Source: Heterohyrax brucei
Lineage: Eukaryota; Chordata; Mammalia; Hyracoidea; Procaviidae
Assembly (NCBI GenBank): GCA_028571685.1
Contig: CM053154.1
Coordinates: forward strand, 15,656,001-15,720,000
Length of the DNA: 64,000 nt
Reading direction: 5' to 3'
Shown here: in pieces, positions 2,393 to 62,625 of the stretch
How positions within the stretch are numbered: the first letter of the stretch is position 1
Layout of the letters: the number at the start of each line of letters is the position of its first letter
Made by a program: the position numbers and the translations under genes
The notes under the pieces: generated by a model
The model's database searches: none
Seen by the model: only the letters and a program-made list of their open reading frames with translations
What the model was told of the DNA's origin: nothing

Positions 2393-2561
2393 TCTGTCGC
2401 CTCTTCTCCCTTTTGCATGATGATCTTGGCTGCACCCACTTTTGGGAAGGTTGGATTCATCATGTTGTTATTCCAGAGAAACTTGGCTTTCGCAATTGTT
2501 CCAACATCAAGTTTTGCATCAAATTCATCGGAATGGGTTGAGCCTGATATCAGAATTCCCC
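2393..2561 (-). pseudogene. PNLIPRP1: PNLIPRP1 pseudogene exon 12, frame shifted by one
   Basis: Reads [20 protein letters not shown] then [20 protein letters not shown] and ending KGEEAT. It is 169 bases, against 168 for human, with an extra G in the run after the acceptor. Donor GTATGT. No exon 13 was found between here and position 1. Confidence 0.9.
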
Positions 2562-3146
2562 CTGAGATAGAGAAATAGAAACAAGGTCAAATGATGGTTC
2601 AAGGTCATGTCACTTTTTTCTGCCCTAGATTAACAATAGTTATTTTTCCCAGTTAATTCCCCCTAAAAGAATGAAGAAATAGAAAAGTCAGGTATGTGCC
2701 TCAAACTGCTATCTAAAGAGTTTCTTCAAACTCGTGTTACTTTGTCCTTAATAAGCTACATAGAAAAATATATAATCTCTTCATATGAGTCAGATCCGAC
2801 TCGATGGCACTTGGTTTGGCTGGCTCATATTACTTTATATTTTTTGGAAAAATTATTCATACAGTAATAAAGTTAGCTATTTAGTTTAACACATAAGTGC
2901 ATATCACTTTACTAATCAGAAAACATGATATCTGTGGTAATACTAATTTTTTAAAAAAGTGACACGCTAAAAAAGAACAGAATACTTGTGTTTATAACAG
3001 AAGAAAAAATATTAGCAATAGTCCACCATCAGCTTTGGTGCTGACAGTAAAGGATTAAAAATCAATTGACATAAATGCACAGATTTGCTCCTTGAAAGCT
3101 GTGTACTTTGTCAAATGAGCTATAACACTAAAACAGGAAATTTTTC

Positions 3147-3255
3147 CTGAAGATGTCATACTGGCGAGTGTTTCCTTTATTTCCAAACAAACCAACTTTA
3201 ATTTGCCCAGTGACTGCTTTTCCGGACAGTGTTACAGAAACCCCTTATCTCTAGC
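3147..3255 (-). pseudogene. PNLIPRP1: PNLIPRP1 pseudogene exon 11, two stops and lost donor
   Basis: 109 bases. The usual RWRYGVS reads R-TAG-R-TAA-GVS (TAG 3251-3253, TAA 3245-3247), then [20 protein letters not shown] and ending YDIFR. The donor reads GAAAAA in place of GT, so normal splicing to exon 12 is not expected. Confidence 0.92.
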
Positions 3256-3429
3256 CTGTACAAACAGTTGTAAGGGCTCGAATTATTCCCACACAAAAGA
3301 GGTGTCACAAGCTCTAGATTCCTGTCCCTGCCCTTATACCGAAGTATCAGAATGTAAGGAGTTCTATTCATTGGTACATAATTCAAGACCTGAAGGGGAA
3401 ACACATACCTACTGTCTCTTCCTCCAAGG

Positions 3430-3612
3430 ACCATGGAAGTGCAGTGGTCAAGCACTTGGCTGCTAACCAAAGGGTCCATTGGTTGCAAGCCCCCAGTAGG
3501 AACACAGGAGAAAAAACCTGGAGATCTGCTCCAATAAAGATTATAGACCAGAAAACCCTATGGGGCTGTTTTGTCCTTCTGGGTCCCAACTTGACGGCAC
3601 ACAGCTGTAGCA
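3430..3612 (+). repeat. AfroSINE in PNLIPRP1 intron 10
   Basis: Head GCAGTGGTCAAGCACTTGGC, middle CTGGAGATCTGCTCC, tail ACTTGACGGCACACAGC. It lies about 180 bases upstream (in gene direction) of the damaged exon 11. Confidence 0.8.
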
Positions 3613-3664
3613 GTGTGTTTCTCCAGAACCATGCTACCAGGATAGGTGCAACTAGCTAGTCAAG

Positions 3665-3850
3665 GTTGTTTAAATTCAAATTAAATCACATTCAGAGCAG
3701 AGCTCCTCTGTGACACTAGTCATATCTGAAGTGCTGAATTGCCACCCATGGCTGGTGGCTACCATATTGGACAGCGCAGAGCATGTCCATCATAGTAAAA
3801 GTTTCTTTTGGACAGCTGTGCTCTAGAATGACATCACTGAGCTCAAGCGC
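3665..3850 (+). repeat. Possible hAT-type non-autonomous DNA transposon relic
   Basis: AATTCAAATTAAATCACATT followed by GGCTGGTGGCTACCATATTG and GGACAGCGCAGAGCATGTC resembles the widespread mammalian short MER elements with a TTGGACAGC end. Family assignment is from memory. Confidence 0.4.
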
Positions 3851-4033
3851 TAAGAGAAGAAACAAGAGCGTGTCTCCACATCTGGAAAGGCAGCCCACAG
3901 AGTGCAGTGCAACGAGTGTCTGAGGGGCAGGACTTACGTCTTCTCTTCACACCACTAGGGCCTTGGGCAGTCTCTGCGCCGAGCAGGTACTCAGTCCTCA
4001 CTCAGACTGACACCTTGAGTTCTGCGCTTATGC

Positions 4034-4350
4034 TCTGCACACACACATACATACACACACGTGCAGAGATGAACACATATTCACATACATATTTATGGAT
4101 GCTTGCATCCACAAACACACACACAAAGCTGCACCCATACACACAAATACACCTTCCATCATCGAACAAAGTTAAATATTGATGTACTGAAAAGAAAAAT
4201 ACATACATTCACACACACACAAAAATATACACACAAATCTACACATATACACACATAAAAAACACATGCAAATAAACACACATATATACACACGCACACA
4301 CAAGTGTACGTACACATATAGCCAGCCTCACATACACATACAAGCACACA
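4034..4350 (+). repeat. Impure CA microsatellite
   Basis: About 300 bases of interrupted ACAC/ACATAC runs with substitutions throughout. Long open frames on both strands here are low-complexity artefacts. Confidence 0.9.
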
Positions 4351-4439
4351 CACATCCTCAGAGACATTGTCCTTATCCCTCTGTGAGCCCAGAGCCTGGT
4401 GCCCTGTCCCACTGTGCTACAATAGCAGCCTGCTAGTAG

Positions 4440-4600
4440 CTAAGCCCAACGTACTTCTAATTGCTTGCTTGGTCTCTGTCTTCTCGGCTAGAATATAAAT
4501 TTCATGAGTACAGTGCCTTGTTCTCCTCCACACTCCCTGTGTCTAATGTAGTCTGTGGTCCATAAATAAATGTTGGTGGGGGAATGAATACATGGATTTG
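4440..4600 (+). repeat. L2 LINE 3' end relic
   Basis: The typical L2 tail order is visible: GAATATAAATTTCATGAGTA, a CTTGTTCTCC...CTGTGTCTAA stretch, then CATAAATAAATGTTGG. Confidence 0.55.
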
Positions 4601-4935
4601 AATGTTTAATTTGTTGTTGTTAAAATATGGCCAAGTATTTCACGTAGCACTATACCAGTGGAAGGATTGATTAACCAATGTCATCTTTAAAAATTACATA
4701 TGTTTTATATATAGTGATGAAACTATTCTATATCTTGATTGTCATGTCGTTTTACAGTATTCATTTGTCAAAACTCATAGAACTATACTCTAAAAAAGGA
4801 TGACTTTTGCTGTATATAAATTATACCTCAATAAATCTGACTTTAAAAAGCTTATGAGACATGTATTATATTTATGTGGTCGTATAAATATACACACTCC
4901 CTGTTTTTACAGTATAGCCTCTAAGGAGCTACTGT

Positions 4936-5125
4936 GAGACCAGTACCAAGAACCATCAAGACATTTCTGACTCATGGTAACCCTGTGTGTGTCAGAGTGG
5001 AACTACTCCATAGGGTTTTCAATGGGGTATTTTTTGGAAATACATTGTCAGATCTTACTTCTGGGTAGATTTGGACCTTCAGATTCTTAATTAGCCTCTG
5101 AATGCTTTACTGTTTGCATCACCAT
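4936..5125 (-). repeat. AfroSINE, diverged
   Basis: Minus-oriented: CTGACTCATGGTAACCCTGT, then GTGGAACTACTCCATAGGGT and TTAGCCTCTGAATGCTTTAC correspond to tail, body and head of the family. Confidence 0.7.
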
Positions 5126-5175
5126 GGGACAAAGTGGTATAAAGTGGCCCAAATATGTCCCATCTCTATCCTATG

Positions 5176-5342
5176 CGCAAACCCTGGTGACATAGTCATT
5201 AAGTGCTACATTTGCTAACCAAAAGTTTGGCAGTTTGAATCTACCCAGCGCTCCTTGGAAACTCTACAGGGTAGTTCTACTCTGTCCTGTAGGATTGCTA
5301 TGAGTCAGAATCGACATGATAGCAGTGATTTGGTTTGGGTTT
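5176..5342 (+). repeat. AfroSINE, near full length
   Basis: From CAAACCCTGGTGACATAGTC through TTTGCTAACCAAAAG and CAGCGCTCCTTGGAAACTCT to the tail ATGAGTCAGAATCGACATGA. Confidence 0.9.
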
Positions 5343-6207
5343 CTATCCTATGCCCTCTTCTATTCAATGAGGTTTTGAGAGAAATCTTACCCACTCCAAA
5401 CACATTATCATCCTCCGACACCAGGGCAGCCTCTGAGTATCAGGAAACCACAGGACAAGGGATGGCAGAACAGGGAGACTGGCAAAGAGATGGCACCAAA
5501 CAAATGTTTGCTGAGTGAATAAAAGAACTGGAGGTGGGGTGGGGGTGGGAGGCAGCAGACAGTCTTGAAAAGGGGTAGTCTTAGAAATGAACTGTAGAGT
5601 AATGAAAAGCTAGGATAGGTGGCCCCAAAGCCGTACAGATTGTCATCATCCCATTAATTACACACTTTCTTCTATTTATTTAGTGCCATGGATGTGAAAT
5701 GGGGGGATACAGACTATCATTTGTCTTAAATGGGATAGTTTGGGTAGATGTGACCTTTGATGTATCAAACCATGATATAAAAAGTCATAGCTTGGGGCCA
5801 CTAAGATTCTCCTGATAAGGGTGATGGAAAAACTGAGAAACAGATAGAAATGATGGTTGCACAACATGAGGAAAGTCATTAATGGCATGAATTGGACATG
5901 TAAAAAATGTTCACTTGGCCATTTGGAAGGGTACGTATCTACTCACATAAAATAAGTGAAAAAAAATACAGTTCACAGAGTGATGGAGCCACAAGCCAAG
6001 GGATGTGGTTAGCCACCTGAAGCTGGAAGAGGCAAGAAACAATTTCCCCTTCAAGCCCTTGGAGGAAACACGGCATTGTCAACTCCTGGATTTGGCTCAG
6101 TGATGTTGATTGGGGACCTCTGGAATAAATGTGTGTTATTTTGAGTTAAAAGAAAATGAAGTTCAGATGTGTTTAAACGCTGCTTAATTGAGTTCTCTAA
6201 GATAATC

Positions 6208-6280
6208 TAAAGCCAAAGCCAAATGCTGTCTAGTCGGATCCAACTCATGGCGACCCTGTTGCGGGGGAGGGGGGGGGTCG
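6208..6280 (-). repeat. AfroSINE/RTE tail fragment
   Basis: Only the 3' portion: GTCGGATCCAACTCATGGCG followed by ACCCTGTTGCGGG. It lies about 100 bases past the PNLIPRP1 exon 10 donor. Confidence 0.55.
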
Positions 6281-6373
6281 GTCCACAAGTAAGTCAGGCT
6301 GAAGGAAAACCCTTCATCTGTAACAGAAGCGAAACGGTCTCCACACGGAGAGGAAGCCAAAGCCACAACTTAC

Positions 6374-6503
6374 GAGCAAAATTGCTGGCATCTCCTGCGT
6401 TCAGGAAGAATTTCTGATGCTCATCACTTGTGTTGCTGCCAAATGTATCAGCATAGTGACCCATCTGGGGGCAACCTTCAGCTGGACAGGGGAAGCACTT
6501 GTT
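6374..6503 (-). pseudogene. PNLIPRP1: PNLIPRP1 pseudogene exon 10, open
   Basis: 130 bases reading [20 protein letters not shown] and [12 protein letters not shown]. Acceptor and donor (GTAAGT) are canonical. Confidence 0.92.
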
Positions 6504-7239
6504 CTAAGAAAAAGACAGAGCAGAGATGAATGCGCAGAAACTCAGTTTTCCTAAAGCTTGGGTTTGCTCATTTGTAACAAAAAGGAGGTCGGAATCGACT
6601 GTCTCTAAATCACCTTCTTCCAGGGCAGTGGTACCCCACCCTGACGCACATCACATTGGAGTTATCGGAGAGCCTACAAAGAACGGATGCTCCGGCCCGG
6701 GCTTATAGCAGTCATATCTTCCACTAAGTGGTGTGCTGATAACTGTTGAACAGTGGCTTTCTAGGGGGAAAAAAGTCCTTAGTGCAGCATTTGCCCATGT
6801 CTGTGCTATAAATGCTCTCACCGTGGCCCATTTCAAGCTATCAACATGGAATCACTGAATGGAGACCTGGGAAGCCAGACAAAGTCCAGGAATACTCTGG
6901 CACCTTGTTTCCTCCATGTGCCTCCTAGTTACTGACTCAATAAGGCACAAGCTCCCAGCCTGGCATGTCACACCTCACATCTGTCTTCCCTTCTCTCTGA
7001 ACAGCTTTCTGGTGGCTGTCACCCATTCTCCTGTTCCTGCTCTGCCCTGGCCAGAAATGTGCGCCCTCACTTTCTAAACTCGCCCTTTCTCCAAGCTAGA
7101 TACAGATGTTTCCTCTTGCCAGCTTTTCTCTCTGCTCAGTCTTCCTCTTATACATGGCCCATCTGGAATTTTAGCCCCTTCTGTAAAGTCGTTGTGTGTT
7201 TGTATTTGTGTTTGTTTTAGCCCCACTCTACAGGACAGA

Positions 7240-7385
7240 AGGAACACCGATGGCACAGTTATTTTAGTACTCAGCTGTTATTCAAAAGGTTGGCAGTTCA
7301 AACCCACCAGGGGCTGTCTTTGGGGCAGTTCTACTCTGTCCTGTAGGGTTGCTGTGAGTTGAAATGCATTCAATAACTGCAGGTA
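7240..7385 (+). repeat. AfroSINE, partial
   Basis: TTCAAAAGGTTGGCAGTTCA, then CAGTTCTACTCTGTCCTGTA and GGGTTGCTGTGAGTTGAAAT mark the body and tail; the head is diverged. Confidence 0.8.
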
Positions 7386-7531
7386 CAGACCATGAGCTCT
7401 GAGAGATACTAACCAACATGTAGGATGTAGTCAAGAAAACTTAACGGGGGTGTAGTGCAAACCCCAAACACAGCAGGACAATAGCCTCACAGTGGGACCA
7501 TGCCGGTGGCACAAGCAAGACAAGGGCTTAC

Positions 7532-7650
7532 AGGCATGAAGTCCTTATAGGAAGCGCATGGGTAGATCACAAACCTGTCAGGGTTGAGGATGCTCTCTGA
7601 GTAGTACTTATAGCTTCGTAAGTGGTTGCAAGCCACAAAATCCCGGGTTC
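7532..7650 (-). pseudogene. PNLIPRP1: PNLIPRP1 pseudogene exon 9, open
   Basis: 119 bases reading [20 protein letters not shown] then [20 protein letters not shown]. The catalytic-position His is kept. Donor GTAAGC. Confidence 0.92.
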
Positions 7651-7774
7651 CTAGGGGACAAGACTCAGGAAGTCAGCCAAGGAGCTCAAGGGGCTGTGGC
7701 AGTTTTTCTGCCACTCTCTCCAGGGAGGATGTTTCTACAGAGGGACCATATTTCCAGAAATTTTGCCATGAACA

Positions 7775-7962
7775 TTTATGTACTTGACTACTAGCCGATA
7801 GGTTGATGGTTCGAACTCAACTGGAGGCATCTCAGAAGACAGGCCTGGCGATCTTCTTCTAAAAAGCCAGAACCTTGAAAACGCTATGGAGCAGCTCTAC
7901 TCTGCACACATGGGCTGCCATGAGTCAGATTCAACTCAATGGTGTTTTTTTTTTTTTTTTTA
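7775..7962 (+). repeat. AfroSINE with T-rich tail
   Basis: Variant with the internal block GACAGGCCTGGCGATCTTCT and CACACATGGGCTGCCATGAG, ending in a run of about 18 T. Confidence 0.8.
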
Positions 7963-8249
7963 ATTAGGTGACTTATAGCTACCAATTAATTGTTGAAATT
8001 ATACCTTTAATCACCAGTTTTGTAATTCTTTATTAAATGTACACTCCGCAACACCTAAAACTATTTAGAGAAACTATAAAAATCAGTAGAACTAAGACAT
8101 GGCAAATGATGTGTGTATGTTTTTCAGAAATAAAGCCCAGAAGAGGGAATTGCATATGTTTAGTGAGTAGTGTCTCTTTTGTTTTTGAGGTCAGCAGCAG
8201 AGAGGAGGTTGTTCAACCAGGCCAGCGATATCCTTTGCTGTGGCTTTAC

Positions 8250-8369
8250 CTGTCCAGATGCCATCAAGATCTATGATCTGTGACAATGTATTCTTCTGAT
8301 ACCTGAGCATCTCCTCCCCTCTACTGGGGAAAAAGTCCACGTGCCCCACCAGCTGGCTCATTCCAAAAC
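8250..8369 (-). pseudogene. PNLIPRP1: PNLIPRP1 pseudogene exon 8, open
   Basis: 120 bases reading [20 protein letters not shown] then [23 protein letters not shown] is replaced by MLRY, so the lid disulfide Cys is lost. Donor GTAAAG. Confidence 0.9.
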
Positions 8370-8475
8370 CTAGAATGTTTGGAACAGCAGTGAATTGATC
8401 ATCATCCAGGGTCTCATGTTACAGTACAAATGCAGAGGCTCACAGCCAGAGCATGGGATGGGGGGTGGGGCTCAC

Positions 8476-8584
8476 CCAAGAATGGGATTGGGGTTGGGGG
8501 GACTGTGTCTGTGTGAATCACATCTACAAAGACAGTGTGAGAGGGGTCGAGGTGAACCTCTCAGGGGTACAGATGGTCTCAACG
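8476..8584 (-). pseudogene. PNLIPRP1: PNLIPRP1 pseudogene exon 7, degraded
   Basis: About 109 bases against 120. The catalytic LDP segment is not recognisable. TPEEV lacks one base (GAGAG for GAGGAG). The end still reads [19 protein letters not shown] with two extra residues. Donor GTGAGC is kept; the 5' edge is a best guess at the nearest AG. Confidence 0.75.
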
Positions 8585-8754
8585 CTGCTCACAAGAAGTT
8601 GATAGAGGCGGGCGGACGCTCAAGGACACTTTGATTTGCTTGAGTGAGGACTTTTTCTACATCAGATTCCCTAATCATGTGTATTATCTTCATTCCTAAA
8701 ATCCTCTTTTGTTCAAGTCTGAAAAAAAAAAAAAAGAAGAGAGAGCAAAACACA

Positions 8755-9030
8755 CGGTACCACAGTTAAGAGCCCAGAATCTGGGGCTCGGTTACCTGGG
8801 TTCCCATCTCCTCTAATCTCTGTTCAGTGCTTCTTGGGCTAGTGTATGATTTTTTCTGCGCCTCCATTTCCCTGTTTATAAAATCGGGTTATAGTAGCAC
8901 CAGTTTGTATGGCTATTAAAAGAGCAAATGAGTTCATACATGTAGCATTGAGCACAGTGCCTTGCACTTTGGGCATTTAAGTAAGGCCAAGCTAAGTGCC
9001 ATCGAAGTAAAGTATTAATTATTATTACTG
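8755..9030 (+). repeat. MIR SINE
   Basis: MIR landmarks in order: GTTAAGAGCCCAGAATCTGG, a GTTACCTGGGTTCC box-B-like stretch, CTCCATTTCCCTGTTTATAA, then GAGCACAGTGCCTTGCACTT. Confidence 0.75.
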
Positions 9031-9179
9031 TATCTTGAGTATATTTTCTTCTTGATAAGGACCCTGGATTTGTCAACAGTTCTTTGAAGGTTTGCTCAGA
9101 GCAACTGAAGATGAAAGGGCAGTTCTTATAGAGACAGAGAGATGTCTGAGCCAAGAGCCAGCAATACAAGGTTTGTATT

Positions 9180-9335
9180 TTTGTTCCAACAACAACCAGT
9201 TGCATGTGTCAACTTAGGCAAGTTGCTCCTTCCTTGAGTCTCAGTGTCTTCAGGTTTGAGGATTAAATGAGAAAATACAAGTAAATCACTCTACACAGTA
9301 TTGGGGATAAATAAGCACTTAATGTATGGTTGTTT
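9180..9335 (+). repeat. MIR SINE, 3' half
   Basis: CTTAGGCAAGTTGCTCCTTC, GAGTCTCAGTGTCTTCAG, GAGGATTAAATGAGAAAATA and ATAAATAAGCACTTAATGTA follow the MIR 3' half. Confidence 0.6.
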
Positions 9336-9344
9336 TTGTTGTTT

Positions 9345-10510
9345 TGTTGTTAGGTGCTGTTGAGTTGGTTCTTACCCACAGCAACACTGTGTACCGTCCT
9401 CACAATCCTTGCTGTGTCTGAGTCCATTGTTATAGCCACTGGGTGAGCCCATCCCATTGAAGGTCTTCCTCTTTTTTATTGACCTTATGCTTTACTGAGC
9501 ATGATGTCCTTCTCCAGGGACTGATAACATCCAAAGTTTATGAGACGAAGTCTTGTCATCTTTGCTTCTAAGGAGTATTCTGGCTGTAATTCAGAGACAG
9601 ATTTGTTCATTCTTCTGGCCGTCCATGGTGTACACTCAATATTCTTCAACAATACCATGGTCCAAAGACATTAGTTCTTCAGTCTTCCTTACGCATCCAG
9701 CTTTCACATGTGGATAAGTGATTGAAAATACCCTGAGTTGAGTCAGGTGCACCTCAGTCTTCAAAGTGACGGTATTTCTTTTCAATACTTCGAGGAAGTC
9801 TTTTGCAGCAGATTTTCCTATCATTTGATTTCCTGACTGCTGTTTCCATGGATGTTGACTGTAGATACATGTAGAATGAATCCTCAACCACGTCAACACT
9901 TTCTCCATTTATCAGGATGTTTTTTATTGGTTCACTTGTGAGGATTTTTATTCTTGATCATCGTCAGCAAGTCCTTCAAGCAAGATCGTGTCATTTGCAT
10001 ATCACGGGTTATCAACGGGTCTTGCTCCAAACCTGATGCCCTGTTCTTCTTCATATAGTCCAGCTCCTTGGATTGTTGGTCAACATGTGGACTGAATAAG
10101 TACGGTGAAAGTAAACAAACCCGATACTCATCCTTCCTAATTTTAGACCACACAATATTCTCTTCTTCTCTTCAAACAACTGCCTCTTGGTCTATGCACA
10201 GATTCTGCATGAGCACAATTAACTGTTTTGGAATTCCCATTCTCTGCCATGTTATCCATAATTTGTTATGATCCACACAGTTAAATGCCTTTGCATAGCC
10301 AACAATACACAGCTAAACACCTTTCTGGTGTTCTCTGCTTTTAGTCAAGATACATCTGACATCAACAATGATACAATGATACCCCTTGTTCCACATCTCA
10401 GCCCAGTTCATAGATGGCTACTGTACCACTATTATTATATATACCTATGCTTTGTTTCTTTTGTTGTTGTTATAGTTAAAGGCTTTCTTTGGATTAAATG
10501 ACTACTTTTG
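9345..10510 (-). mobile_element. RTE-type LINE, 3' portion
   Basis: Minus strand encodes the last part of an RTE reverse transcriptase ORF. Recognisable stretches are the KDLLTMIKNK region near 9935-9960 and the TLKTEVHLTQLRVFSITY block (9715-9775). The element ends at 9345-9360 with the AACTCAACAGCACCTAACAA tail. It occupies PNLIPRP1 intron 6. Frame is interrupted repeatedly, so it is an old inactive copy. Confidence 0.8.
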
Positions 10511-10979
10511 GCTATGATGGTGGCTGGATTTCTTCTACCAGAAGAAGCAGCAAGAAACAATTTTTATATTCTACTCTGCCCTTGATTTCAAAGAGAAGGG
10601 GGGAAAGGAGTGATGGGGACAATACAGTCCTTCCTGAATTGTTTTTTTGCCCACAGTCATACTAGCCTGACTCTGCATTTTCCCGAGAACTCACTCTTGG
10701 GTACCTAGTTACTCTGAGTGGCCCATACTGCCAGAAACTTCCATTTAGAGAGGAGACACCCGAAACAGATGAAGACGCAATGGAGACCAAAGCCACCATG
10801 TGTTCCCTTGCCATGAAGATAGACCATGGGGTTTCCTAAAGTATTCAGTGTGGCCTCTATCCAGGTCTGCCACAGCTGAAGGGGATGGTTTCCTTCAAGG
10901 CAACTTCCAGCTGGCCTATTACTAATATGCAGTGCTATTACTATGGACAAAACCTGGCCCCCTGCTCCTCGGGCTGCAC

Positions 10980-11088
10980 CTGTAATTCTGCTGGGGCCTG
11001 GGGTCCGGCTGCCTGCCTCTCCAGACACGTGGGCTCCCAGGCTGTGACCAATGAGGTACACTTTGGAAGGTGAGTAGCTATAGTTTGT
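10980..11088 (-). pseudogene. PNLIPRP1: PNLIPRP1 pseudogene exon 6, open, serine kept
   Basis: 109 bases, the PNLIPRP1 length (one codon less than PNLIP): [20 protein letters not shown] then [17 protein letters not shown]. The GHSLG motif survives. Donor GTGCAG. Confidence 0.92.
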
Positions 11089-11164
11089 CTGAAGAGGGAA
11101 AATTGCATTTTCAGGACAATTTTTTTTGCCACTCCAGTAATTTTTTTTAATGCAAACCTGAAGG

Positions 11165-11790
11165 TGTTATTCTTTTACTACAAGCCTACCACAGCTCCCA
11201 CTGCCCTCAGGATTAAGTCTAAACTTACAACAGTGGCCTTAACGCTTTGCTGACAGCAAACTGTGATGGAAAAATAGTGCCTGTGGATTAGCTCTAAACT
11301 GCTGATGCTCTATCACAGCTGGCAGTGGAAAGGGTGATGCCCATTAGGAACCACTCAGTGGCGAGACTCCCCCTCCCCAAGTGGCTCCCAGAGCGCGTGG
11401 CCTACTTGCCATAGCTTAGAGATGCCTCTACTGATCTAGCACTTATTTTTCCAGACTCTTCTCCAGCCAAATACTTTGCTGAACTTTCTGGCCCTCAAAA
11501 AGGCAGTCCACTCAAAATCCACTGCTATAGAGTCAAAAAGTCTCACCTCAGGGCATTTCCGTTGTTGTCTATACCTTTAAGCACTAGCCAAGCTAAAATG
11601 ACAAAGTCAACTTTCATTCTCTGACTTGGATGTCTCCCTCTCTGGGAAGACCAGCTTAACCACCTTTCCCCACCCCAGCCTCGGTTACCTCCTCCCCCGA
11701 TATGTTCCGGTGGCACCCTGCACTGCACCCATCATACCCATGATCACACTGTATCCCCCTCACAAGTCTTTGCTGCAAGCACCTTATGAG
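11165..11790 (+). repeat. Possible L2 LINE relic
   Basis: CCCACTGCCCTCAGGATTAA and GTCTAAACTTACAACAGTGG match the L2 3' half; the 11600-11760 stretch rich in CTCCC/CACACTG fits the following part. Very diverged. Confidence 0.35.
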
Positions 11791-12227
11791 GTACCACCTC
11801 AACGCTCCTCTTTACCTCCTAGCTCAATTCTAAAAGTATTGGAGAATAAACAAATGGCCCAGAGCCATAAGGGAGTTACATATGGTGGTGTCAGAGGTGT
11901 TTACCCAAAGTTATTTCATTTAATGACAAAGTTGGAAACCACGTATGATTTTGTGTCCTCAGATATCTCTGGTCTACAGTGACCCCAGGACAAACACTAT
12001 GGGGCATCTCCAACAGATGGAGAAACTACTGACACGATTGTGGCAGAGGAAATGCCCCAATATGCCAGAGTAGTTGGTGCGTACCAACTGTGTCTTCATT
12101 TTCAAACAGAGACCACTTGGGGTTTGGGGTCAGACCAGGTACCCTGGAACTAAACAGCCTGGGACAAACGACTACCTTTCTACTTCTGTGCTCTTTCATT
12201 TCTTTAGTACCTACTTCACCTCTTGGA

Positions 12228-12378
12228 AACCCGAAGTGGTTAGATGCTATGGCTGTTAACCAAAAGGTTGGGAGTTCAGATCTGCCAGGCGCTCCTTGGA
12301 AACTCTATGTGGCAGTTCTTCTCTGTCTCATAGGGCAGCTATGAGGCAGAATCGACTCTACAGCAGTGAATTTACTTA
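12228..12378 (+). repeat. AfroSINE in PNLIPRP1 intron 5
   Basis: GAAACCCGAAGTGGTTAGATGC, GCTGTTAACCAAAAGGTTGG, CAGGCGCTCCTTGGAAACTC and GAGGCAGAATCGACTCTACA follow the consensus closely. Confidence 0.9.
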
Positions 12379-12652
12379 ACCTCCCTTACCTCTCTTGACC
12401 TCTATTATCTTCTATATAAATTAAAGGTGAAACCAGAAGCATCCACCTCCAAGTGTTAGTTAACATTACTATTTTCTTTCCCAGGTATGTTGTTATCAAG
12501 ACTCGTATCAAAGATTTAGAAGAGCTAAGAGAAATATCAGTTATTTCTATTTCTTCTTCAAATATGCAACAACTAGTTCCATCACCACCCAGAAGACACC
12601 AGCACACACTACTTCCACTCAGAAGGTGCCTAATAACCTGCGCTCAACTCAC

Positions 12653-12773
12653 CGAGAGAAGGCTGATCACCTCCCACCACCCTCACACCTTTGGCAGCCT
12701 GCGTGAAGGTGGTTTGGGATCCCTTCTTCCGGTCCACAGAGATGCAGTTCACTTTCTCCACCTAGAACATGTT
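12653..12773 (-). pseudogene. PNLIPRP1: PNLIPRP1 pseudogene exon 5, stop and shortening
   Basis: 121 bases against 135 expected. It opens N-M-F-TAG-V-E (stop at 12762-12764). VNCICVDW reads VNCISVDR, and the end of the exon around VRVVG is cut short, changing frame. An inverted AfroSINE ends about 30 bases from the acceptor, in the branch-point region. Confidence 0.9.
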
Positions 12774-12803
12774 CTGATGTCAGGAGACACCAAGATGTTA
12801 TCA

Positions 12804-12972
12804 TCCCATAGCAAAACTGAACCAGTTGGTGCTGAATCCATTCTGACTCCTAGTGACCCTATAAGACAGAGGAGAATGGTCCCATAGTGTTTCCAAGGAG
12901 AAGCTGGTGAATTTCAACTGCTGACCTTTTGGTTAGCAGCTGTAGCTTGTAACCACTACCCCACCAGGGTGG
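12804..12972 (-). repeat. AfroSINE beside PNLIPRP1 exon 5 acceptor
   Basis: Full-length minus-oriented copy from GAACCAGTTGGTGCTGAATC to CTACCCCACCAGGGT. Its 3' end lies about 30 bases from the exon 5 splice acceptor, within the branch-point region. Confidence 0.9.
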
Positions 12973-13442
12973 TGTAATTGTCATCGGGGCACATGGAATG
13001 ATATCCAGCTAGGGTCAGAAATGGTACTTATAGTCTTCAGATGAGCCCGTTGTCCTCACAGGAGGATGGAGATAAATTTGACTTTGTAAACGAATCCAGT
13101 TGTCACTTTGGAATTATTTCTCAGGGCTAATGCTGTAAGCCAGGCATTGATTCCTGCTCTAGTCTGCAGATTCCTTAAAGGCTGGCATGCTTGTTCTGAT
13201 TTTCAACCAAATTCAATAGGGTTGGTTTTAAAGAGGCGACAGCCAAAAAACAATTGCATCATTTTGTGCTATTTTGAAAAAGGAAAGTTTTAAATGCAAT
13301 CTCTGGCGGCCAGTTGTCTAAATAGCCATTGAAAATTTGACCACTAGAGGTCCTTTCAGTCTCCGGGTAAAACTGCCAGTTTGTGGGCCAGGGCTCATGT
13401 GTCACTCAGGTGAGCACTTGCTAGGTTTGAAGATGTGTAGAA

Positions 13443-13797
13443 AGGAGCCATGGTGGCTTCATGTTGAAGCTCCCAGCTGCTGACTAATGGGCCAGCTACT
13501 CTCAGGAGAAAGATGAGGCAGTCTGTTTCCATAAGGATTCTCCACTGCTGTCAAGTAGATTCTGACTCATAGTGACCCTATAGGACAGAGTAAAACTGTC
13601 CCCGTAGAGTTTCCAAGGGGGGTCTGGTGGATTCAAACTGCTGACCCTTTGGTTAGCGGCTGTAGAACTTAACCACTATACCACCAGGGTTTCTCCATAA
13701 AGATTAGAACCTTGAAAACCCTATGTGGTAGTTCTACTCTGTTCTATAAGGTTGCTATGATTGGAATCAACTGGACGGCAATTTTTTATTTTTTGTT
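13443..13797 (+). repeat. AfroSINE interrupted by another AfroSINE
   Basis: Plus-oriented copy in two parts, 13443-13539 and 13706-13797, split by the inner copy at 13540-13693. The sequence TCCATAAGGATT at 13528 recurs as TCCATAAAGATT at 13694, which is the inner copy's target duplication. Confidence 0.85.
13540..13693 (-). repeat. Inner AfroSINE nested in the one above
   Basis: From CTGCTGTCAAGTAGATTCTG to ACTATACCACCAGGGTTTC. It is bracketed by a 12-base duplication with one mismatch, so it is younger than its host copy. Confidence 0.9.
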
Positions 13798-13811
13798 AAT
13801 GTGTGTGTAAG

Positions 13812-14000
13812 GAGCGGCAGTGGTTAAGAACTGGGCTGTTAACTGGAAGGTGAGCAGTGCAGACCCATCCAGAGACTCCTAGGGAGAAAGACCTGGTGAT
13901 CTGCTCCAGTGCAGATTATCACTTAGAAAACTCCACGGGGCATTTCTACTCTGTTACATTGAGTCTCAAGGAGTTGAAATTGACTTGGTGACCAATAACA
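13812..14000 (+). repeat. AfroSINE
   Basis: GGAGCGGCAGTGGTTAAGAA, GAAAGACCTGGTGATCTGCT and AGGAGTTGAAATTGACTTGG; a variant with the long middle block. Confidence 0.85.
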
Positions 14001-14186
14001 TGGTGTAGGGAGAAGGTAAAGAGGAAGGGAGAGTTTCATTATTTTATAGTCAGGACAACATGATATTTCCTGGAGAAAACCCATACTGCAGATATTTGGG
14101 AAGTACAATTGTGCCAATTTAGAAGAACTAGAGGAATTTTGAAAGACAAATGTCTTCCTGGATGTCCAGGGCTCTGATGCATCCTC

Positions 14187-14727
14187 AGAAGTTCTAAGCG
14201 GGGAACCAGATGGTTCCCAGCTACCACCAGGGATAGCCACGATGGGGCTCACAAAGTTGAGTCTCTCTGGCAACGTGAAAATTAAAAGGGGTGCACTCTG
14301 AGAACCCCACTAAAAGACAGCAGTTGATGGGCTAGAGACCTCGGGGTTTCCCTTGGAGCAAGGCCCGTGTTCCTGATGCTGCCCCTGTCCATAAATCATT
14401 ACTGAGGTCAACTCTTCGGACAGGAATGGATTGGACTCAGCGACACAGAGTGATCATATTGTGTGTGCACTTTATGGATCTATGCATCTACAGGATGTCA
14501 TCCTGCTGACCTGTTACTGGAGGGGGTGAAATAGGTGGAGAGGAGAGGACAGGGGATTGTTAGGAGGATATGACATATATAGAATGAATAGGAGGAGTGT
14601 GCTGTCATTGGGCAGGGAGAGCAGCAGCAGCTGCACATAGGCAGGCATGCAAATTTATAATGGATTGCGCACTTTCACTCAACCACAATAAAATAAGAAT
14701 TAAAAAAATAAAAAAAGAAGTTCTAAG
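14187..14727 (+). mobile_element. Short L1 insertion (3' UTR only) with target duplication
   Basis: 517 bases of L1 3' UTR (14199-14715), matching the 3' UTR of the L1 at 60.9-61.7 kb on the other strand, ending in an AATAAAATAAG signal and an A-rich tail. AGAAGTTCTAAG is at both 14187-14198 and 14716-14727, a 12-base target duplication. It lies in PNLIPRP1 intron 4. Confidence 0.88.
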
Positions 14728-15179
14728 AGGCAGCACACATGACCAACTTTAGTTTAAAATCGTGCTATCAACGCTCATCTCCATTAGTCTTTTTACCTGT
14801 GTGATGCTAACGGTGTTATCATTGCCTCACATTTTTTTTTCTTCTTTTTTTTCACAGCAGCCCTGAGGGCCCTCTTTTACTTATGCTTATAAACCTGAAG
14901 AACCTTGGGTGTAAACTTGTGTAGATAAAGCACTTATTCATGACAGGACACAATAGATACTGAAAGTTATGCATCCAAAAAAACCAAAGCCAAAGGCAAA
15001 ATTTATTTTGTAGATTTTTACTTTTTCCTGTTACTATTAATGACACCCTAGCAGACTGAGTCGTTAAACCAGGAGGGGGGAGGCAGGCTGCTGGGGTAAA
15101 CACCAGTGGCAAAAAAGATAGGTTGGATCAGTGTATGCATGAAAGAAAGGATGATGGCACACTGCGAGCACGTGTGTGC

Positions 15180-15236
15180 CTACATGGGTGTGTGTGTGTA
15201 TGTGTGTGTGTGTGTTTCTGTGTTTCTGTGTGTATG
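15180..15236 (+). repeat. GT microsatellite
   Basis: Interrupted GT run with a TTTCTGTGTTTCTG variant stretch. Confidence 0.9.
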
Positions 15237-15665
15237 TCTGTTCTTCAGCTGTCTGTCCTTCCAACCAACAGGTGCTTGGCTGTATTGTAATTCTGGCACT
15301 TCCTGTTCTTCTAGCTTAGTTACCTGGCCAATCTTAGCTCTTCACATCTCAAAGTAAGCAGTCATAGAAACACACCTCTGACTTTTAGGGCAGGTTCCAG
15401 GTGTGCTGCTGATGACAGATTTGAACACAAATAAAACAGAATCTGTCATGGGAATATGAGATAATCTTACTGCAAATGGAAGTGAATGCTTAGCCTTGGT
15501 TTACCCAGAGATGACAGAAGGGAAGAGCTTGCTCAACCAGCGAATATCACTGCATTGGGTAACTGATATATTCCAGGAATGTGGTCAGGAATTTCTGTTT
15601 TTGTGTAGTTGCACAAATGTGCCTAATATGGACGGAGTCTCTTTGAGTACCTGTGTACAGTTGAT

Positions 15666-15828
15666 GGAATCCTGGTTGTGCAGTGGTTAAGAGCTCGGCT
15701 GCTAACCGAAAAGTCAGCAACTGGAGTCTACCAGGCACTCCTTGAAAACTGGATGGGGCAGTTCTACTCTGTCTATAGCGTAGGTAAGGTGACTATGAGT
15801 TGGAACTGATTGACAGCAGCGAGTTTCA
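15666..15828 (+). repeat. AfroSINE in PNLIPRP1 intron 4
   Basis: GAATCCTGGTTGTGCAGTGG, CTCGGCTGCTAACCGAAAAG, and the tail GACTATGAGTTGGAACTGAT. It lies 100 bases downstream of exon 4 in gene direction. Confidence 0.88.
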
Positions 15829-15927
15829 CTGGTGGAGTTGCTGTCTCTGAGCTTATTTATGAGGGTCTCTTAAAGTGAGGGGCGCACTAGCAGGAAGCAG
15901 AGGAGGCAAGGATTAGAGGGGCTGTAC

Positions 15928-16053
15928 CTCGCACATGTCCGGTGGCCAGCTCTCATTCCCCTTGTCTATGAAACCGTGGATGATGAAGTGGGTTTTCCTG
16001 TCTGTTTGAAAATTCGAAGCCTCGATGGTTGATGACTTAGAGGGAAGGAGAAT
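15928..16053 (-). pseudogene. PNLIPRP1: PNLIPRP1 pseudogene exon 4, open
   Basis: 126 bases (42 codons), no stop: [20 protein letters not shown] then [16 protein letters not shown] and DMCE. Donor GTACAG is weak. Confidence 0.9.
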
Positions 16054-16139
16054 CTGTGACAAATGCAGACGAGAAGCATATTCTCATGGCAGCCTAGTCC
16101 TATCTCTTCCCTTCCCCCATCTCCTCCTATCCTGACCCC

Positions 16140-16500
16140 ATGACCTTTTAAAGTTTAGCACAAAAACCACCACTTCCATGAAACTCTACTTGATCTCCTC
16201 GCTCTCTTGACTCCCCAGCTCAGTAATCGCTGCCTGCACTGGATCTGGGTTACGATCCAGCTAGCCATCTGTGCCAGACTCAGATACTACTGTCTTGCTT
16301 TCTCTATTGGTCTTGTTAGACTGTAAGGTCCTCATCCCGGAGATCAAGATCGTATAGCCAGGCATAATCCGGTAAAGTGAGCCATTGGTCCCTTCAAGCA
16401 AACACTTAGTGAAGACCTATTCTGTCCAGGTCTGTCTAGTAGAGAAAGGGAACACAGAGACGAACAGGCTCTGGCTCTAGGGAACTCACAGTTTACAGGG
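16140..16500 (+). repeat. L2 LINE relics
   Basis: The AAACTCTACTTGATCTCCTC...TTAGACTGTAAGGTCCTCAT order is that of the L2 3' end. CACTTAGTGAAGACCTATTC...GGGAACTCACAGTTTACAGG matches the other common L2/MIR3 segment. Both sit in PNLIPRP1 intron 3. Confidence 0.5.
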
Positions 16501-16554
16501 TAGACCCAGCCCCTTACCCTGTTACAGTTATGTGAAAATGACCTGAGGTCTCAC

Positions 16555-16709
16555 TTGAAAGTTGCTTGGGTTTTCATTGGTCTAGAGTCAGAAGCGGATG
16601 CCAGTCTTCTCTGGGCTCCAGGGCAGAAGTTTCATGGGCAGGATTACAGTCCCAGCCCAGGGCTCCACGTCTGAAAAACACCCAGGGTCAACATGGTAAA
16701 TTTCTTTTC
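16555..16709 (-). pseudogene. PNLIPRP1: PNLIPRP1 pseudogene exon 3, two stops
   Basis: 155 bases, full length, reading [19 protein letters not shown] and [12 protein letters not shown]. The normal FLLYTNEN then reads F-TGA-L-TAG-TNEN (TGA at 16588-16590, TAG at 16582-16584). The first disulfide Cys (KEVCYE) is Tyr. Splice sites are still canonical. Confidence 0.93.
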
Positions 16710-16989
16710 CTAAAGTAAGAGGATAAAGATGCCTATGGCAAAGCTCCCAAGGCCAGGCCCTGGGGTGTGACTGTTCAGTCCTGCTCACTCCTCTGCCTGT
16801 GGGCAGTCTGAAGACAACAGATGGCCCCTCTGCCCTATCTGCTCTTCTTGCTCCTGGTGTCCAGTTACTGGCCTAAGACCACCCCACTGGGCCCCACTGA
16901 GATTCCAACATACCTCTGCTCACAACTTAACAGTCTTGTGTTCCTTTCTAGCTCTTTTGATACACATTTGACTAACATGACAACAACAT

Positions 16990-17190
16990 CATGGTCCATG
17001 TGTGGTGCCAACGGCTGACATGCTCAGCCACTGACCATAAGGTTGGAGGGTTAAGTTCCCCGAGAGGCACCGTGGAAGAAAGGCCTGGTGATCTACTTCC
17101 AAAAAAGCAGCCACTGAAAACCCTGTGGAGCACAGTATTTCTTTGACACACATGGGGTCACTGTGAGTGAATGACAACTGATTAATGTGA
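16990..17190 (+). repeat. AfroSINE in PNLIPRP1 intron 2
   Basis: Diverged copy: GAAAGGCCTGGTGATCTACT, AAAACCCTGTGGAGCACAGT and CACACATGGGGTCACTGTGA are clear. Confidence 0.8.
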
Positions 17191-17518
17191 CAATGGACAT
17201 TAATAATCAACATGCTAACCCAAGCAGATTTCCCACTTGCATTTTGATAATAGCAATGCATGCCTTATCTGGAAAAGACTGGCCTCGGAAACCTAAGTAG
17301 GAAGGCAGGCCACCCAGAAATGTTGTGTAATGGGTCCCCCTCAAGCATCCCAGCTGTTCTTCTAGCCAAAAGACCAGCACTCTACCGCTCTATCCCCCAG
17401 AACCTGGAATTTTCCTAGAGCCGCTGGAAGCCCTGCTGTAGCTAACAAGACTTCCTCTGGTGGCTGCTACAATCTTGGGTTTAAGCCCTTCCTAAGGGGC
17501 AGGACTGGTGTTTCTTAC

Positions 17519-17567
17519 CGCTGGTGGCTCCCAGCAGAAAAAGTGTGATTTTCCAGATTCTCAGCAT
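17519..17567 (-). pseudogene. PNLIPRP1: PNLIPRP1 pseudogene exon 2 (signal peptide)
   Basis: Intact reading MLRIWKITLFLLGATSG, close to human MLIFWTITLFLLGAAKG. Acceptor TATTGCAG abuts the ATG; donor GTAAGA. Confidence 0.9.
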
Positions 17568-17678
17568 CTGCAATAAACACAAACACACTCAGTCTCTGCC
17601 AACATTCCTGGGGCACTAAGGCCATCTTTCCTGGTGTCCCAGTTACTGCTGGTGGGGGCAACAGCAAAGGTGACTTAC

Positions 17679-17706
17679 CTTGTCTGATGTACTAGGTAGT
17701 CCTTCC
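17679..17706 (-). pseudogene. PNLIPRP1: PNLIPRP1 pseudogene exon 1 (leader)
   Basis: Consensus donor CAAG/GTAAGT at 17678/17679, downstream of the TATA-like box; the layout mirrors PNLIP exon 1. The 5' edge is inferred from TATA spacing. Confidence 0.6.
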
Positions 17707-21790: not shown

Positions 21791-22895
21791 GTAAAATTTT
21801 GCTAAAGATCCTTCAAAAATGACTGCAACAGTATATTGACAGGAAACTGCCAGAAATTCAAGCAGGATTCAGAAAAGGACATGTAACCTTATCATTGCTG
21901 ATGTCAGATGGACCTTGGCTAAAAGCAGAGAATACCAGGAAGATATTTCCCTGTGTTTCATTGGCTGTGTAAAGGCATTCAGTTGTGTGGATCTTAACAA
22001 ATTATGGCTAGCATTGCAGAGAACGGGAATTACAGAACACTTAATTGAGCTCTTAAAGAGTCTGTATGTGGATCAAGAGGCAGTTGTGTGAATAGAACAA
22101 GGGGACACTGCATGGATTAAAGTCAGGAAATGAGTATGTCAGGCTTGTGTCCTTTCACCATAACTTTCAGTCTGTATGTTGAGCAGATAATCTGAGAAGC
22201 TGTACTGTATGAAGAAGGGTGAGGTGTCAGGATTGTCAGAAGACTCAGTAACAACCTGCGTTATACAGATGATACAGCCTTGCTTGCTGGAAGTGAATAG
22301 GATTTTAAACACCTACTGATGAAGATCAAAGACCAAGGCCTTCGGTATAGATTGCTCCTCAACATCAAGAGAACAAAAATCCTCACAACTGGACTAGTAA
22401 ACAACATCATGATAAATGGAGAAAGGATTGAGGTTGTCAAGGATTTCCTTTTACTTGGTTCCACAATCAATGCCCATGAAAGCAGCAGCAGGCAAGAAAT
22501 GAACAGATGCATTACGTTGGGAAAATATATTGTAAAGGGCCTCTTAAAGTATTCAAAAGTAAAGATGTCACTTTGAAAACTAAGGTGCACCTGACCCCAT
22601 CCGGAGCGCTCCTTCGAAGCAAAGATAGCGAGACTGCTTCTCTTGTACTTTGGACGTGTTTTCAGGAGAGATCAGTCCCTGGAGAAGGAGAGAAGATTAT
22701 GCTTGGTAGAGTGGAGGATCAGAACAAAGGAGGAAGACCCTCAAGAAGATGGATTGACACAGTGGCTCCAAGGATGGGCTTAAGCATAAAAGAAATTGTG
22801 GGCACGGCACAGGAGTGGCCAGTGTTTTGTTCTCTTGCACATAAGGCCACTGGGAGTTGGGACTGACTCAATGGCACTTAACACCAACAAATTTC
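21791..22895 (+). mobile_element. RTE LINE, 3' segment of the same copy
   Basis: Begins ILLKILQK (21798) and IDRKLPEIQAGFRKG, continues through the YTDDTALLAGS catalytic region near 22265 and the TLKTKVHLTPSGALLRSKD block, and ends with the GGRPSRRWIDTVAPRMGLS tail domain and ACTCAATGGCACTTAACACC. Several stops and shifts interrupt it. Confidence 0.85.
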
Positions 22896-23689
22896 AAGAG
22901 ACAGAGATTTATTGGAAAAACATTAAGACATCTCACGGAATCCATGGAACAGTTAAACAGAGAAGCCTGATGAAGCCCCTCAAGAGGGCCACTCTGGAGA
23001 TTTGGGCACAGGTATGTAAAGAACCCCTTCTGCCCTCAGTTAGATTCTGCTACAGATGCTCTGTGCATCTCGTTCAGAATTCTTCATTACCAAGTGATTG
23101 GTCCTGGCTAGACCAGGAGCTGTTCCTGAACTACTCAGCTCTGGGAAGTGGGTCACATTGATAGGACTGACAAGGGTGCCCACCTCACACCCACAGACAG
23201 AGGTGAAGTTGTGAGCCACTGCAAAAGTTGCACAGCAATAAAATAACCATTCTCAACCAGCTGACTCAGTTAGTAAAAAAGTACACAATTCATGGCTGGA
23301 AGCCAGTGAACAGAAGATTTCTTTTAAGTATTATTTGTGTTAATCACACCTTGGAATAAGGAAGAGTTATCAAAGTGAATGACAATGCTGGACACTGGCT
23401 TTCCAGGCTTCCAGTAGCAAAGAAATCTGATCAGCACTGCTATGCTGTTTTATGAAGCAGCCCTATATTTATCAGAATGAGGTGTTTATAAGAAAGTGTT
23501 GTGGTTGTTACCAGGGGACTCAGACACCAGAGACCTGTCTGAGGCTCTTGCCCCTCCTTGATCAAGAACAAACAGGTAAGGCACAAAGAATCTTTCCTCA
23601 AGAGCAAAACTTTATTAAAGAAACTTGCAAGTGGAGAATAGGCGATGCTTACCCACCTCCCTAAACAAAAATTTTATCAGGGCTTATTA

Positions 23690-24246: not shown

Positions 24247-24420
24247 TCCTCCTGGAAAGCATAGCAGTTTAGTGCTGCATCTGCTAACCAAAAGGTTGAC
24301 ATTTCAGATCCGCCAGGTGCTCCTTGGAAACTCTGTAGGGCAGTCCTATGCTGACCTATACAGTTGCTATGAGTCAGAACCAACTGAATGGCCATGGGTT
24401 TGGTTTGGGGTTTGTTTTTT
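24247..24420 (+). repeat. AfroSINE within the LTR-like repeat
   Basis: GTTTAGTGCTGCATCTGCTA, TCCGCCAGGTGCTCCTTGGA and ATGAGTCAGAACCAACTGAA. It splits the left copy of the 120-base repeat; the right copy at 30.75 kb lacks it. Confidence 0.88.
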
Positions 24421-33174: not shown

Positions 33175-34850
33175 ATACATGACTGTTAGTAATCAGTTTT
33201 TCCATTTTGTTAAAGACTACTATTGGTATCTGGATCAGAATTACATTGTATCTGTAGATCACTTTGGGTAGAACTGAGATTTTCACAATGCTTTGTCTTC
33301 CTATCCATGAGCATGGTAGGTTATTCCATTTTTGTAGAACTCTCGGTTTTATGCAGTAGTGTTTTGTATTTTTCTTTGTATAGGTCTTTTGCATCTTTAG
33401 TTAGATTTATTGAAAAGTATTTTATTTTTTAGGAGCTATTATAAACAGTATTGCTTTCTTGGTTTCCTTTCTGAAGTTCTTGTTGGTGTATAGGAATTCA
33501 GCTGATTTTTGCGTGTTGATCTTATTGATTCCTGTTGAATCTTTCTATCAGTTCTAGTATTTTTCTTGTAGAAACTTTGGTGTTCTCTCTACGTAAAATC
33601 ACTATGAGTAGGACTTGCCTCGACAACAGTGAGTCTTTTTATGTATAAAATAAGATCATCTGCAAATAGGCATAGTGTCGCTTCTTTCTTTCTAATTGGG
33701 ATGCCCTTCATTTCTTTTTCTTGCCTTATTGTTTCAGCTCAATGTTAAATAAGACAGGTGAAAAAGGGCATCCTTGTCTTGTTTCATATTCTCAGGAGGA
33801 ATGTTTTCAGTCTCTCTCCACTGAGAATTATGATGGTTGTTGGTTTTGCACAGAACTAAAAAAACCTGTTGCCATCGAGTCAATTCTGACTCATAATTAT
33901 CTTGGAGAATAGAACGGAACTGCTCCACAGGGTTTCCACAGAGTGACTGGTGGACTCGAATGGCCAATTTTTTGGTTTCTGACCATCGGGCTTCTGGTTT
34001 TCTATAGAAGATCTTTATTTTGTTGAAGATTACTCCTTCACTTCCTATTTTATTAGAGTTTTTTTTCTTTATCAAGATTAGGTATAGGACTCTGTCAAAT
34101 GCCTTTTCTGCATCAACTGAGATGATCATGTAATTCTTTTGTTGTATTTATATGGTAGATTACTTTGATTTTCTGATGTTGGACCATTTGTTTATACATA
34201 GTATGAATCCCACTTGGTCATAGTATATTATTTTTATAATATGATGCTGAATTCTGTTGGACAGAATTTTAAGCATTTTTATGTCTATATTCATAAGAGA
34301 TTTTGCTCTGTAATTTTATTTTATTTTATGTGGTTCGTTGCCTGGCTTTATTATCACTGTATCAGTGTTACGCTGGCTTAATAGAATGAGTTCAAGAGTT
34401 TTCCTTCCTTTTTAGTGTGCTCTAAAAGAGTTTAAATAGTACTAGTGAGATCTCCTCTGAATGTTTGATAGAATTATCAAGTGTGTTATTTATTTTATTT
34501 TATTTTTTAGCTCTCAGTCTCTTGCTATGGTCTGTTCATATCTTCTATCTCAGTTTGTAGTAGTTTAGGCAGATAGCGTGTTTCTAGATATTTGCCCATT
34601 TCCTTTAGGTTCTCAAATTTGTTGGAGTACAATTTTTCTTAGTATTCTGTTATGATCCTTTTTATTTCAGTTGGATCTAACATAAATGGTCTCTATTTTA
34701 TTTTTTATTTGGGTTATTTGCTTCCTCTACTGTATTTCTTTTGTGAGTTTGGTCAATTTGGTTTGTAATTTTGTCAGTCTTTTGAAATGACCAACTTTTA
34801 GTGTGGTTGATTAATGATTTGTGTATATTTTATGTATGTGTTAAAATACA
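33175..34850 (-). mobile_element. L1 ORF2 relic
   Basis: Minus strand encodes reverse transcriptase pieces, with SVDAEKAFDRV near 34080-34125 and the YADD-side region further left (33.7 kb). Interrupted by an AfroSINE at 33852-33986. Stops throughout. Confidence 0.82.
33852..33986 (-). repeat. AfroSINE inside the L1 relic
   Basis: CTGTTGCCATCGAGTCAATT, CTCATAATTATCTTGGAGAA and a truncated head (CCAATTTTTTGGTTTCTGAC). Confidence 0.85.
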
Positions 34851-62351: not shown

Positions 62352-62625
62352 TATGTTGAGCTCTCCTTTTGCTTTTCTGTTGAATCTTTCTGTTAGTTAC
62401 AGTAGTTTTCTTGTGGAATCTTTGGAGTTCTCCATGTATAGTATCATATTAGCTGCAAGCAGGAGTAGTTTTACTTCTTTCTTTCTAATTTAGATACTAT
62501 CTTCCCTCCTTCCTTCATTCTTTCCTTCCTCCTTCCCCTTCTTCCCTCCCTCTCTTCCTTTTTTTTTGCCCTATTGCTCTATACTACAGTGTTAAGTAGG
62601 AGGGGTGATAAAGGGCATCCTTGCG
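62352..62625 (-). mobile_element. Old L1, continuation
   Basis: Antisense ORF2 resumes (TATGTTGAGCTCTCCTTTTG, CTTGTGGAATCTTTGGAGTT) and ends near GATAAAGGGCATCCTTGCGT. A CCTT-rich microsatellite lies inside it at about 62500-62565. Confidence 0.8.

Follow-up and report, generated by a model that had tools for sequence, protein, structure and literature searches.

Decay of PNLIPRP1 beside a PNLIP-type lipase with an altered colipase face in the hyrax Heterohyrax brucei

The window analysed here is a 64,000-nucleotide stretch of the hyrax Heterohyrax brucei (assembly GCA_028571685.1, contig CM053154.1, positions 15,656,001 to 15,720,000 of the forward strand). One of the genes in it is the orthologous, unprocessed PNLIPRP1 of a paenungulate, decayed by substitutions, insertions, and deletions, and a full-length PNLIPRP1 can no longer be read from the locus; we give this reading a probability of about 90%. 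Searching the window by tblastn with dog PNLIPRP1 and horse PNLIP revealed two lipase genes, both on the minus strand:

About 17706 to 2392, minus strand: PNLIPRP1 unprocessed pseudogene, exons I to XII of 13 (protein alignment; exon I by eye)
52859 to 35215, minus strand: neighbouring PNLIP-type lipase (exon joining and tree)

The identity of the decayed gene is supported by both phylogeny and position. In a tree of 62 rows, its joined pieces fall inside PNLIPRP1, not PNLIP or PNLIPRP2, and group at 100/100 with 13 other placental PNLIPRP1 sequences. The nearest relatives there are the xenarthran anteater and sloth (97/77), which fits the expectation for Afrotheria. The locus occupies the syntenic position next to and downstream of the PNLIP-type gene on the same strand, and PNLIP followed by PNLIPRP1 is presumably the gene order in human. 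A frameshift-aware alignment to the anteater PNLIPRP1 protein placed exons II to XII, eleven coding exons, in order, and a plausible exon I was read by eye; the native exon order described in the initial annotation is therefore confirmed. The native introns are kept and the open frame is destroyed. A processed retrocopy was also considered and rejected, as introns are present. With exon I as the non-coding exon and exon II holding the start codon, the exons read as follows:

Ending near 17677, minus strand: exon I, plausible non-coding exon with a good GT donor (sequence read by eye)
17567-17519, minus strand: exon II, encodes the signal peptide MLRIWKITLFLLGATSG, GT donor retained (end by eye; alignment to 17517)
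16707-16555, minus strand: exon III, stops TGA at 16590-16588 and TAG at 16584-16582, first cysteine replaced by Tyr (alignment)
16053-15928, minus strand: exon IV, open frame (alignment)
12773 to about 12653, minus strand: exon V, stop TAG at 12764-12762, frame changed (alignment to 12642; true end by eye)
11088-10978, minus strand: exon VI, open frame, carries the GHSLG motif (alignment)
About 8605-8474, minus strand: exon VII, eroded at its 5' end and with a broken frame; two additional codons, in frame, towards the 3' end
8367-8248, minus strand: exon VIII, open, Tyr in place of the lid cysteine (alignment)
7648-7532, minus strand: exon IX, open (alignment)
6503-6375, minus strand: exon X, open (alignment)
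3256-3146, minus strand: exon XI, stops TAG at 3253-3251 and TAA at 3247-3245, donor GA instead of GT
2559-2392, minus strand: exon XII, one extra G at its start relative to the phase of the PNLIP-type gene (frame +1; alignment)

In total, the locus carries nine separate lesions: five in-frame stops, three frame changes, and one lost donor. The initial annotation had counted five stops in three exons, length differences altering the frame in three, and a destroyed splice donor. Each of these was borne out, with the stops in exons III, V, and XI, the frame changes in exons V, VII, and XII, and the lost donor in exon XI. The overall diagnosis of a decayed PNLIPRP1 given there also held, in view of the clade support, the syntenic position, the retained introns, and the severity of the decay, whereas its term "unitary," which would further require that the genome has no intact copy, is treated here as provisional. 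Exon V measures 121 nucleotides up to its GT, compared to 135 in the PNLIP-type gene, and is thus short by ~14 nucleotides (counted by eye). We take a Val/Ala pair after the catalytic Asp to be what renders PNLIPRP1 inactive; in the hyrax, the start of exon VII is eroded at this site, and GTT GAG ACC (V-E-T) is legible near 8583, by eye only. That PNLIPRP1 lacks lipase activity, as the initial annotation stated, agrees with the available text of PMC8287333, in which the protein is inactive as a lipase.

The substitutions point the same way. Across 22 other PNLIPRP1 rows, 168 alignment columns show no variation, and the hyrax locus is altered at 21 of them (12.5%). When each of the 22 reference rows was left out in turn, 20 were altered at 0 to 2.7% of columns, the exceptions being the sloth Choloepus (8.0%) and platypus (6.6%). 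This reference excluded the hyrax locus, Dama, Moschus, and Prionailurus. The PNLIP-type gene served as a control from the same window: its 12 coding exons encode 465 amino acids, all 11 introns between them are GT-AG, and there is no premature stop, so the lesions in PNLIPRP1 reflect neither chance nor a general assembly problem. Assembly or sequencing error is a very improbable explanation, as it would have to produce nine separate lesions together with 21 replaced columns while sparing the neighbouring gene entirely.

Several observations nonetheless weigh against our reading of the locus. Exons IV, VI, VIII, IX, and X are still open, and exon XIII was not found in the window. Moreover, three annotated PNLIPRP1 proteins outside the reference (cat, fallow deer, and musk deer, the fallow deer model being marked low quality) show 8 to 11% altered invariant columns, and the changed-column measure alone is therefore no proof of a pseudogene. 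Exon XIII (YSFCSEETVREDVLLTLTPC in the anteater) was sought in bases 1-2380, where the best score was 19, compared to 14 to 24 in ten shuffles and 71 for the PNLIP-type gene's own exon. Because the last intron of that gene exceeds 4 kb, exon XIII of PNLIPRP1 may lie beyond the window end.

Looking beyond the hyrax, the PNLIPRP1 rows of Choloepus (P0134), Prionailurus (P0138), Moschus (P0145), and Dama (P0144) are altered at 8 to 11% of otherwise invariant columns. Relaxation or decay may also be under way in the genes of this sloth, this cat, and these two ruminants, and the cat among them is not herbivorous.

To place the loss in time, we applied a rough clock to the changed codons, which number 26 of 173 including the five stops. 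If neutral change is taken to run at 1.2 to 3 x 10^-9 per site per year, a range assumed rather than measured, the loss falls 59 to 24 million years (My) ago, with Poisson limits of 15-90 My. The hyrax-elephant split is calibrated at at least 56 My and the paenungulate node at at least 59 My in the available text of PMC13063843. Because the clock spans 24-59 My against a calibration of at least 56 My, it leans towards a loss close to or later than the basal splits of Paenungulata, although it is compatible with all options considered below. The suggestion in the initial annotation that the loss is common to paenungulates is neither shown nor excluded by a clock so centred.

The distribution of named genes across Afrotheria was drawn from protein searches. 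When the read-through of the hyrax locus was compared with 5.8 billion proteins, 793 hits were obtained, and no afrotherian PNLIPRP1 was named among the best 120 of these. Of the 120, 42 come before the first row bearing the name pancreatic triacylglycerol lipase, and no afrotherian is named in the 42. Across three protein searches, the matches listed include four afrotherian PNLIP rows (Elephas, Trichechus, Tenrec, and Rhynchocyon) and four afrotherian PNLIPRP2 rows (Orycteropus, Loxodonta, Dugong, and Tenrec). Names are given for cluster representatives only, and fragments outside 0.55-1.75 of the query length were not candidates. The lack of a named afrotherian PNLIPRP1 is therefore no proof of loss, as annotation may be absent.

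Three histories can be weighed against these results. The central clock estimates favour a loss specific to the hyrax lineage ~25-50 My ago, with other afrotherians having lost the gene separately or being merely unannotated, and we consider this plausible, if short of an even chance. Within Afrotheria, RXFP2/INSL3 reportedly offers a precedent for independent losses of one gene. However, a hyrax-specific loss requires several independent losses or several annotation gaps, and the rate behind its date is an assumption.

Living paenungulates are plant eaters, which counts towards a second history, a single loss in the paenungulate stem tied to a low-fat plant diet through adaptation or relaxation; we regard this as possible but doubtful. 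In its favour, no elephant, manatee, or dugong PNLIPRP1 appears among the matches listed, and repeated loss of PNLIPRP1 in herbivores has been published, as cited in the available portions of PMC8851862 and PMC7360587. The hyrax locus resembles the convergent losses reported for herbivores (Hecker et al. 2019, PNAS; Wagner et al. 2022, J Evol Biol) in being the same gene and the same kind of event. Yet the 24-59 My clock reaches splits at at least 56 and 59 My only with its slowest rate or upper bounds, and the PNLIPRP1 of tenrec, sengi, and aardvark is likewise unnamed among the matches listed. These three animals are insect eaters. Afrotherian insect eaters without a named PNLIPRP1 among those matches would not fit a purely herbivorous pattern. 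Of the herbivore-related loss proposed in the initial annotation, the loss itself stands, but the case for a tie to herbivory loses strength, since the matches listed name sister genes of insect-eating afrotherians and yet no PNLIPRP1 from any afrotherian.

The third history, in which the afrotherian stem lost the gene, or ceased to need it, within a general gene-loss burst that had no link to herbivory, is one we would put forward tentatively at best. It could explain why none of the 42 top rows is afrotherian although afrotherian PNLIP and PNLIPRP2 are each named four times among the matches listed. However, with 26 of 173 codons altered, the locus retains much similarity for a gene drifting neutrally over more than 70 My, and naming confined to cluster representatives leaves the absence unproven. 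A burst of this kind, with many losses in the same clade and a concentration in the afrotherian stem, is described for Afrotheria and Paenungulata in PMC11014510, but the main text of that paper, as available, contains neither "PNLIP" nor "lipase."

The neighbouring PNLIP-type gene, called an intact PNLIP in the initial annotation, has an intact frame and no lesions. Its colipase face has changed, however, and it is possibly not a one-to-one orthologue of tenrec and sengi PNLIP. It retains the catalytic Ser153, Asp177, and His264 and carries the replacements Lys400 to Asn, Tyr404 to Asn, Ile402 to Val, and Asn366 to Ser. The colipase-contact codons concerned lie in one exon:

39812-39648, minus strand: exon XII of the PNLIP-type gene, codons 400-404 of the colipase contact

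We take Lys400 to form a functionally important ion pair with Glu45 of colipase. Table 2 of PMC7094207 gives the two residues as partners and lists 241, 244, 247, 248, 369, 400, 402, and 404 as human lipase residues touching colipase. Five of these eight contacts (241, 244, 247, 248, and 369) are as in human in the hyrax gene, read from sequence only. Asn400 is found in all three of the hyrax, Elephas, and Trichechus genes, whereas Lys occupies this position in 76 of 79 other PNLIP-type rows and in 41 of 42 PNLIPRP1 rows (one gap). For these counts, rows P0001, P0002, and P0166 were dropped as over-long, and PNLIP, PNLIPRP1, and PNLIPRP2 were sorted by name and listing rank rather than by tree. 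A similar change is known from colipase-independent fish lipases, in which Tyr404 is also replaced by Asn and the replacement is tied to a poor colipase response (PMC7094207, available text). Unlike the hyrax gene and its elephant and manatee relatives, the fish lipases in Table 2 of that paper still have Lys at position 400, or at 398 in one case. No title or abstract start on Lys400 or colipase binding in paenungulate PNLIP was found among the literature matches listed, but subscription papers lay outside this search, making it weak evidence of novelty.

The hyrax gene has also diverged unevenly. Its C-terminal domain departs from the majority at 39.8% of sites and its N-terminal domain at 22.0% (odds 2.34, p 0.00033, one of 64 tests). 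By contrast, the excess was not significant in Elephas (21.2 vs. 15.8%, p 0.20) or Trichechus (28.8 vs. 22.9%, p 0.25). The sign common to the three paenungulates is therefore Asn400, and the strong drift of the C-terminal domain is the hyrax's own. A Suricata row, probably chimeric, was more extreme than the hyrax gene in this test. The rows tested were 62 of 80 database PNLIP-type rows plus human and the hyrax gene, and 50 of these 64 formed the reference, which was larger than an earlier PNLIP reference that left out the hyrax gene, Elephas, Trichechus, Rabbit2, Cynocephalus A, and Diceros.

Exon-level likeness at first suggested that the hyrax gene was PNLIPRP2, an assignment rejected when a tree with PNLIPRP1 and PNLIPRP2 rows placed it in the PNLIP clade. 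By score, the closest of the matches listed is an Elephas "PNLIP-like" protein (77%), followed by Diceros (76%), with Trichechus at 70%. In the trees, the gene forms a clade with the "PNLIP-like" rows of Elephas and Trichechus (95/92 in the 62-row tree and 100/99 in a second). This placement by itself marks the source as a paenungulate, and the gene is too distant from those of elephant and manatee to belong to either animal or to a dugong, which by elimination points to a hyrax. A single clade of afrotherian PNLIPs was disfavoured in the approximately unbiased (AU) test (p 0.02) and a single clade of atlantogenatan PNLIPs was not (p 0.31), both on long branches and a poor backbone. This may reflect either fast evolution of the paenungulate gene or a tandem copy that took the place of the original. 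No second paenungulate PNLIP was named among the best 120 rows of a profile search.

PNLIPRP1 can bind colipase. As a secreted protein with a lipase fold that is inactive yet colipase-binding, it may have reached a point at which its effect on fat digestion was irrelevant or a burden; null mutations would then not have been purged, and changes would have accumulated in the gene at the neutral rate. As the remaining PNLIP-type lipase has altered its colipase face, we propose that the loss may accompany a broader shift in how pancreatic lipase and colipase work as a pair. Once competition for colipase ceased to matter, PNLIPRP1 would lose its role, and we infer that its loss and the lost contact in the PNLIP-type gene could both reflect a changed use of colipase by lipase.

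Taken further, the lipase-colipase system of Paenungulata might have been rebuilt, a speculative reading that joins the loss of Lys400 in the sole PNLIP-type lipase, the C-domain drift of the hyrax, and the decay of a useless PNLIPRP1, and that we think unlikely on present evidence. The Lys400 contact would have been lost before the elephant, sea cow, and hyrax lineages split, or a divergent tandem copy would have replaced the original; the C-terminal domain would then have drifted fastest in the hyrax, and the digestion of fat and galactolipid would rest on PNLIPRP2 and a lipase needing colipase less.

A number of findings speak against such rebuilding. Changed near-invariant columns amount to 7/191 in the hyrax gene and 5/191 in Elephas with the larger reference set, overlapping with platypus (8/193), a bat (6/195), and two strepsirrhine rows outside the reference (12/188 and 11/191); Trichechus (12/190) alone stands clearly above the reference rows. 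Lys400 is also missing from three other PNLIP-type rows, all "-like" copies. Position 404 is Y in 51, D in 12, N in 11, and another residue in 5 of 79 other PNLIPs, and Asn404 occurs in 38 of 41 lettered PNLIPRP1 rows; being so variable, this position gives the replacement of Tyr404 little meaning by itself. Lys400 is present in all 42 PNLIPRP2 rows, those of Loxodonta (elephant) and Dugong included, which also counts against our overall reading. Since elephant and dugong retain this colipase lysine in their PNLIPRP2, colipase binding as such has probably not gone from these animals.

The three "-like" copies without Lys400, from rabbit (P0035), colugo (P0051), and anteater (P0067), have Q, T, and E at this position, hinting that colipase-altered lipase copies are a recurring type.

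Gene loss is an already known kind of event, and the PNLIPRP1 pseudogene extends a known pattern of PNLIPRP1 loss by one well-documented locus while calling the herbivory explanation into question for one lineage. If insect-eating afrotherians such as tenrecs and sengis are truly without PNLIPRP1 as well, diet would not be the common cause. The lead lies instead in the altered lipase-colipase interface of Paenungulata, which suggests one testable cause for both changes: the supposed job of PNLIPRP1 as a colipase competitor may have vanished as the lipase changed.

Elsewhere in the window, open reading frames at 22507-23161, 50775-51143, 33734-34129, and 61983-62493 resemble remains of RTE/BovB-type and L1 retrotransposons, as recognised by eye. 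A Pfam search of these four gave no useful match, and Rfam returned 0 matches. A dispersed repeat occurs up to 11 times, with 60-77% similarity to the reference copy:

5179-5349, 12220-12390, 24248-24418, 38314-38484, 45839-46009, 58455-58625, and others: dispersed repeat copies

Because a tRNA-Cys-like call at 45840-45914 falls on one of these copies, the repeat is probably a tRNA-derived short interspersed element (SINE) family, and afrotherian SINEs are tRNA-derived.

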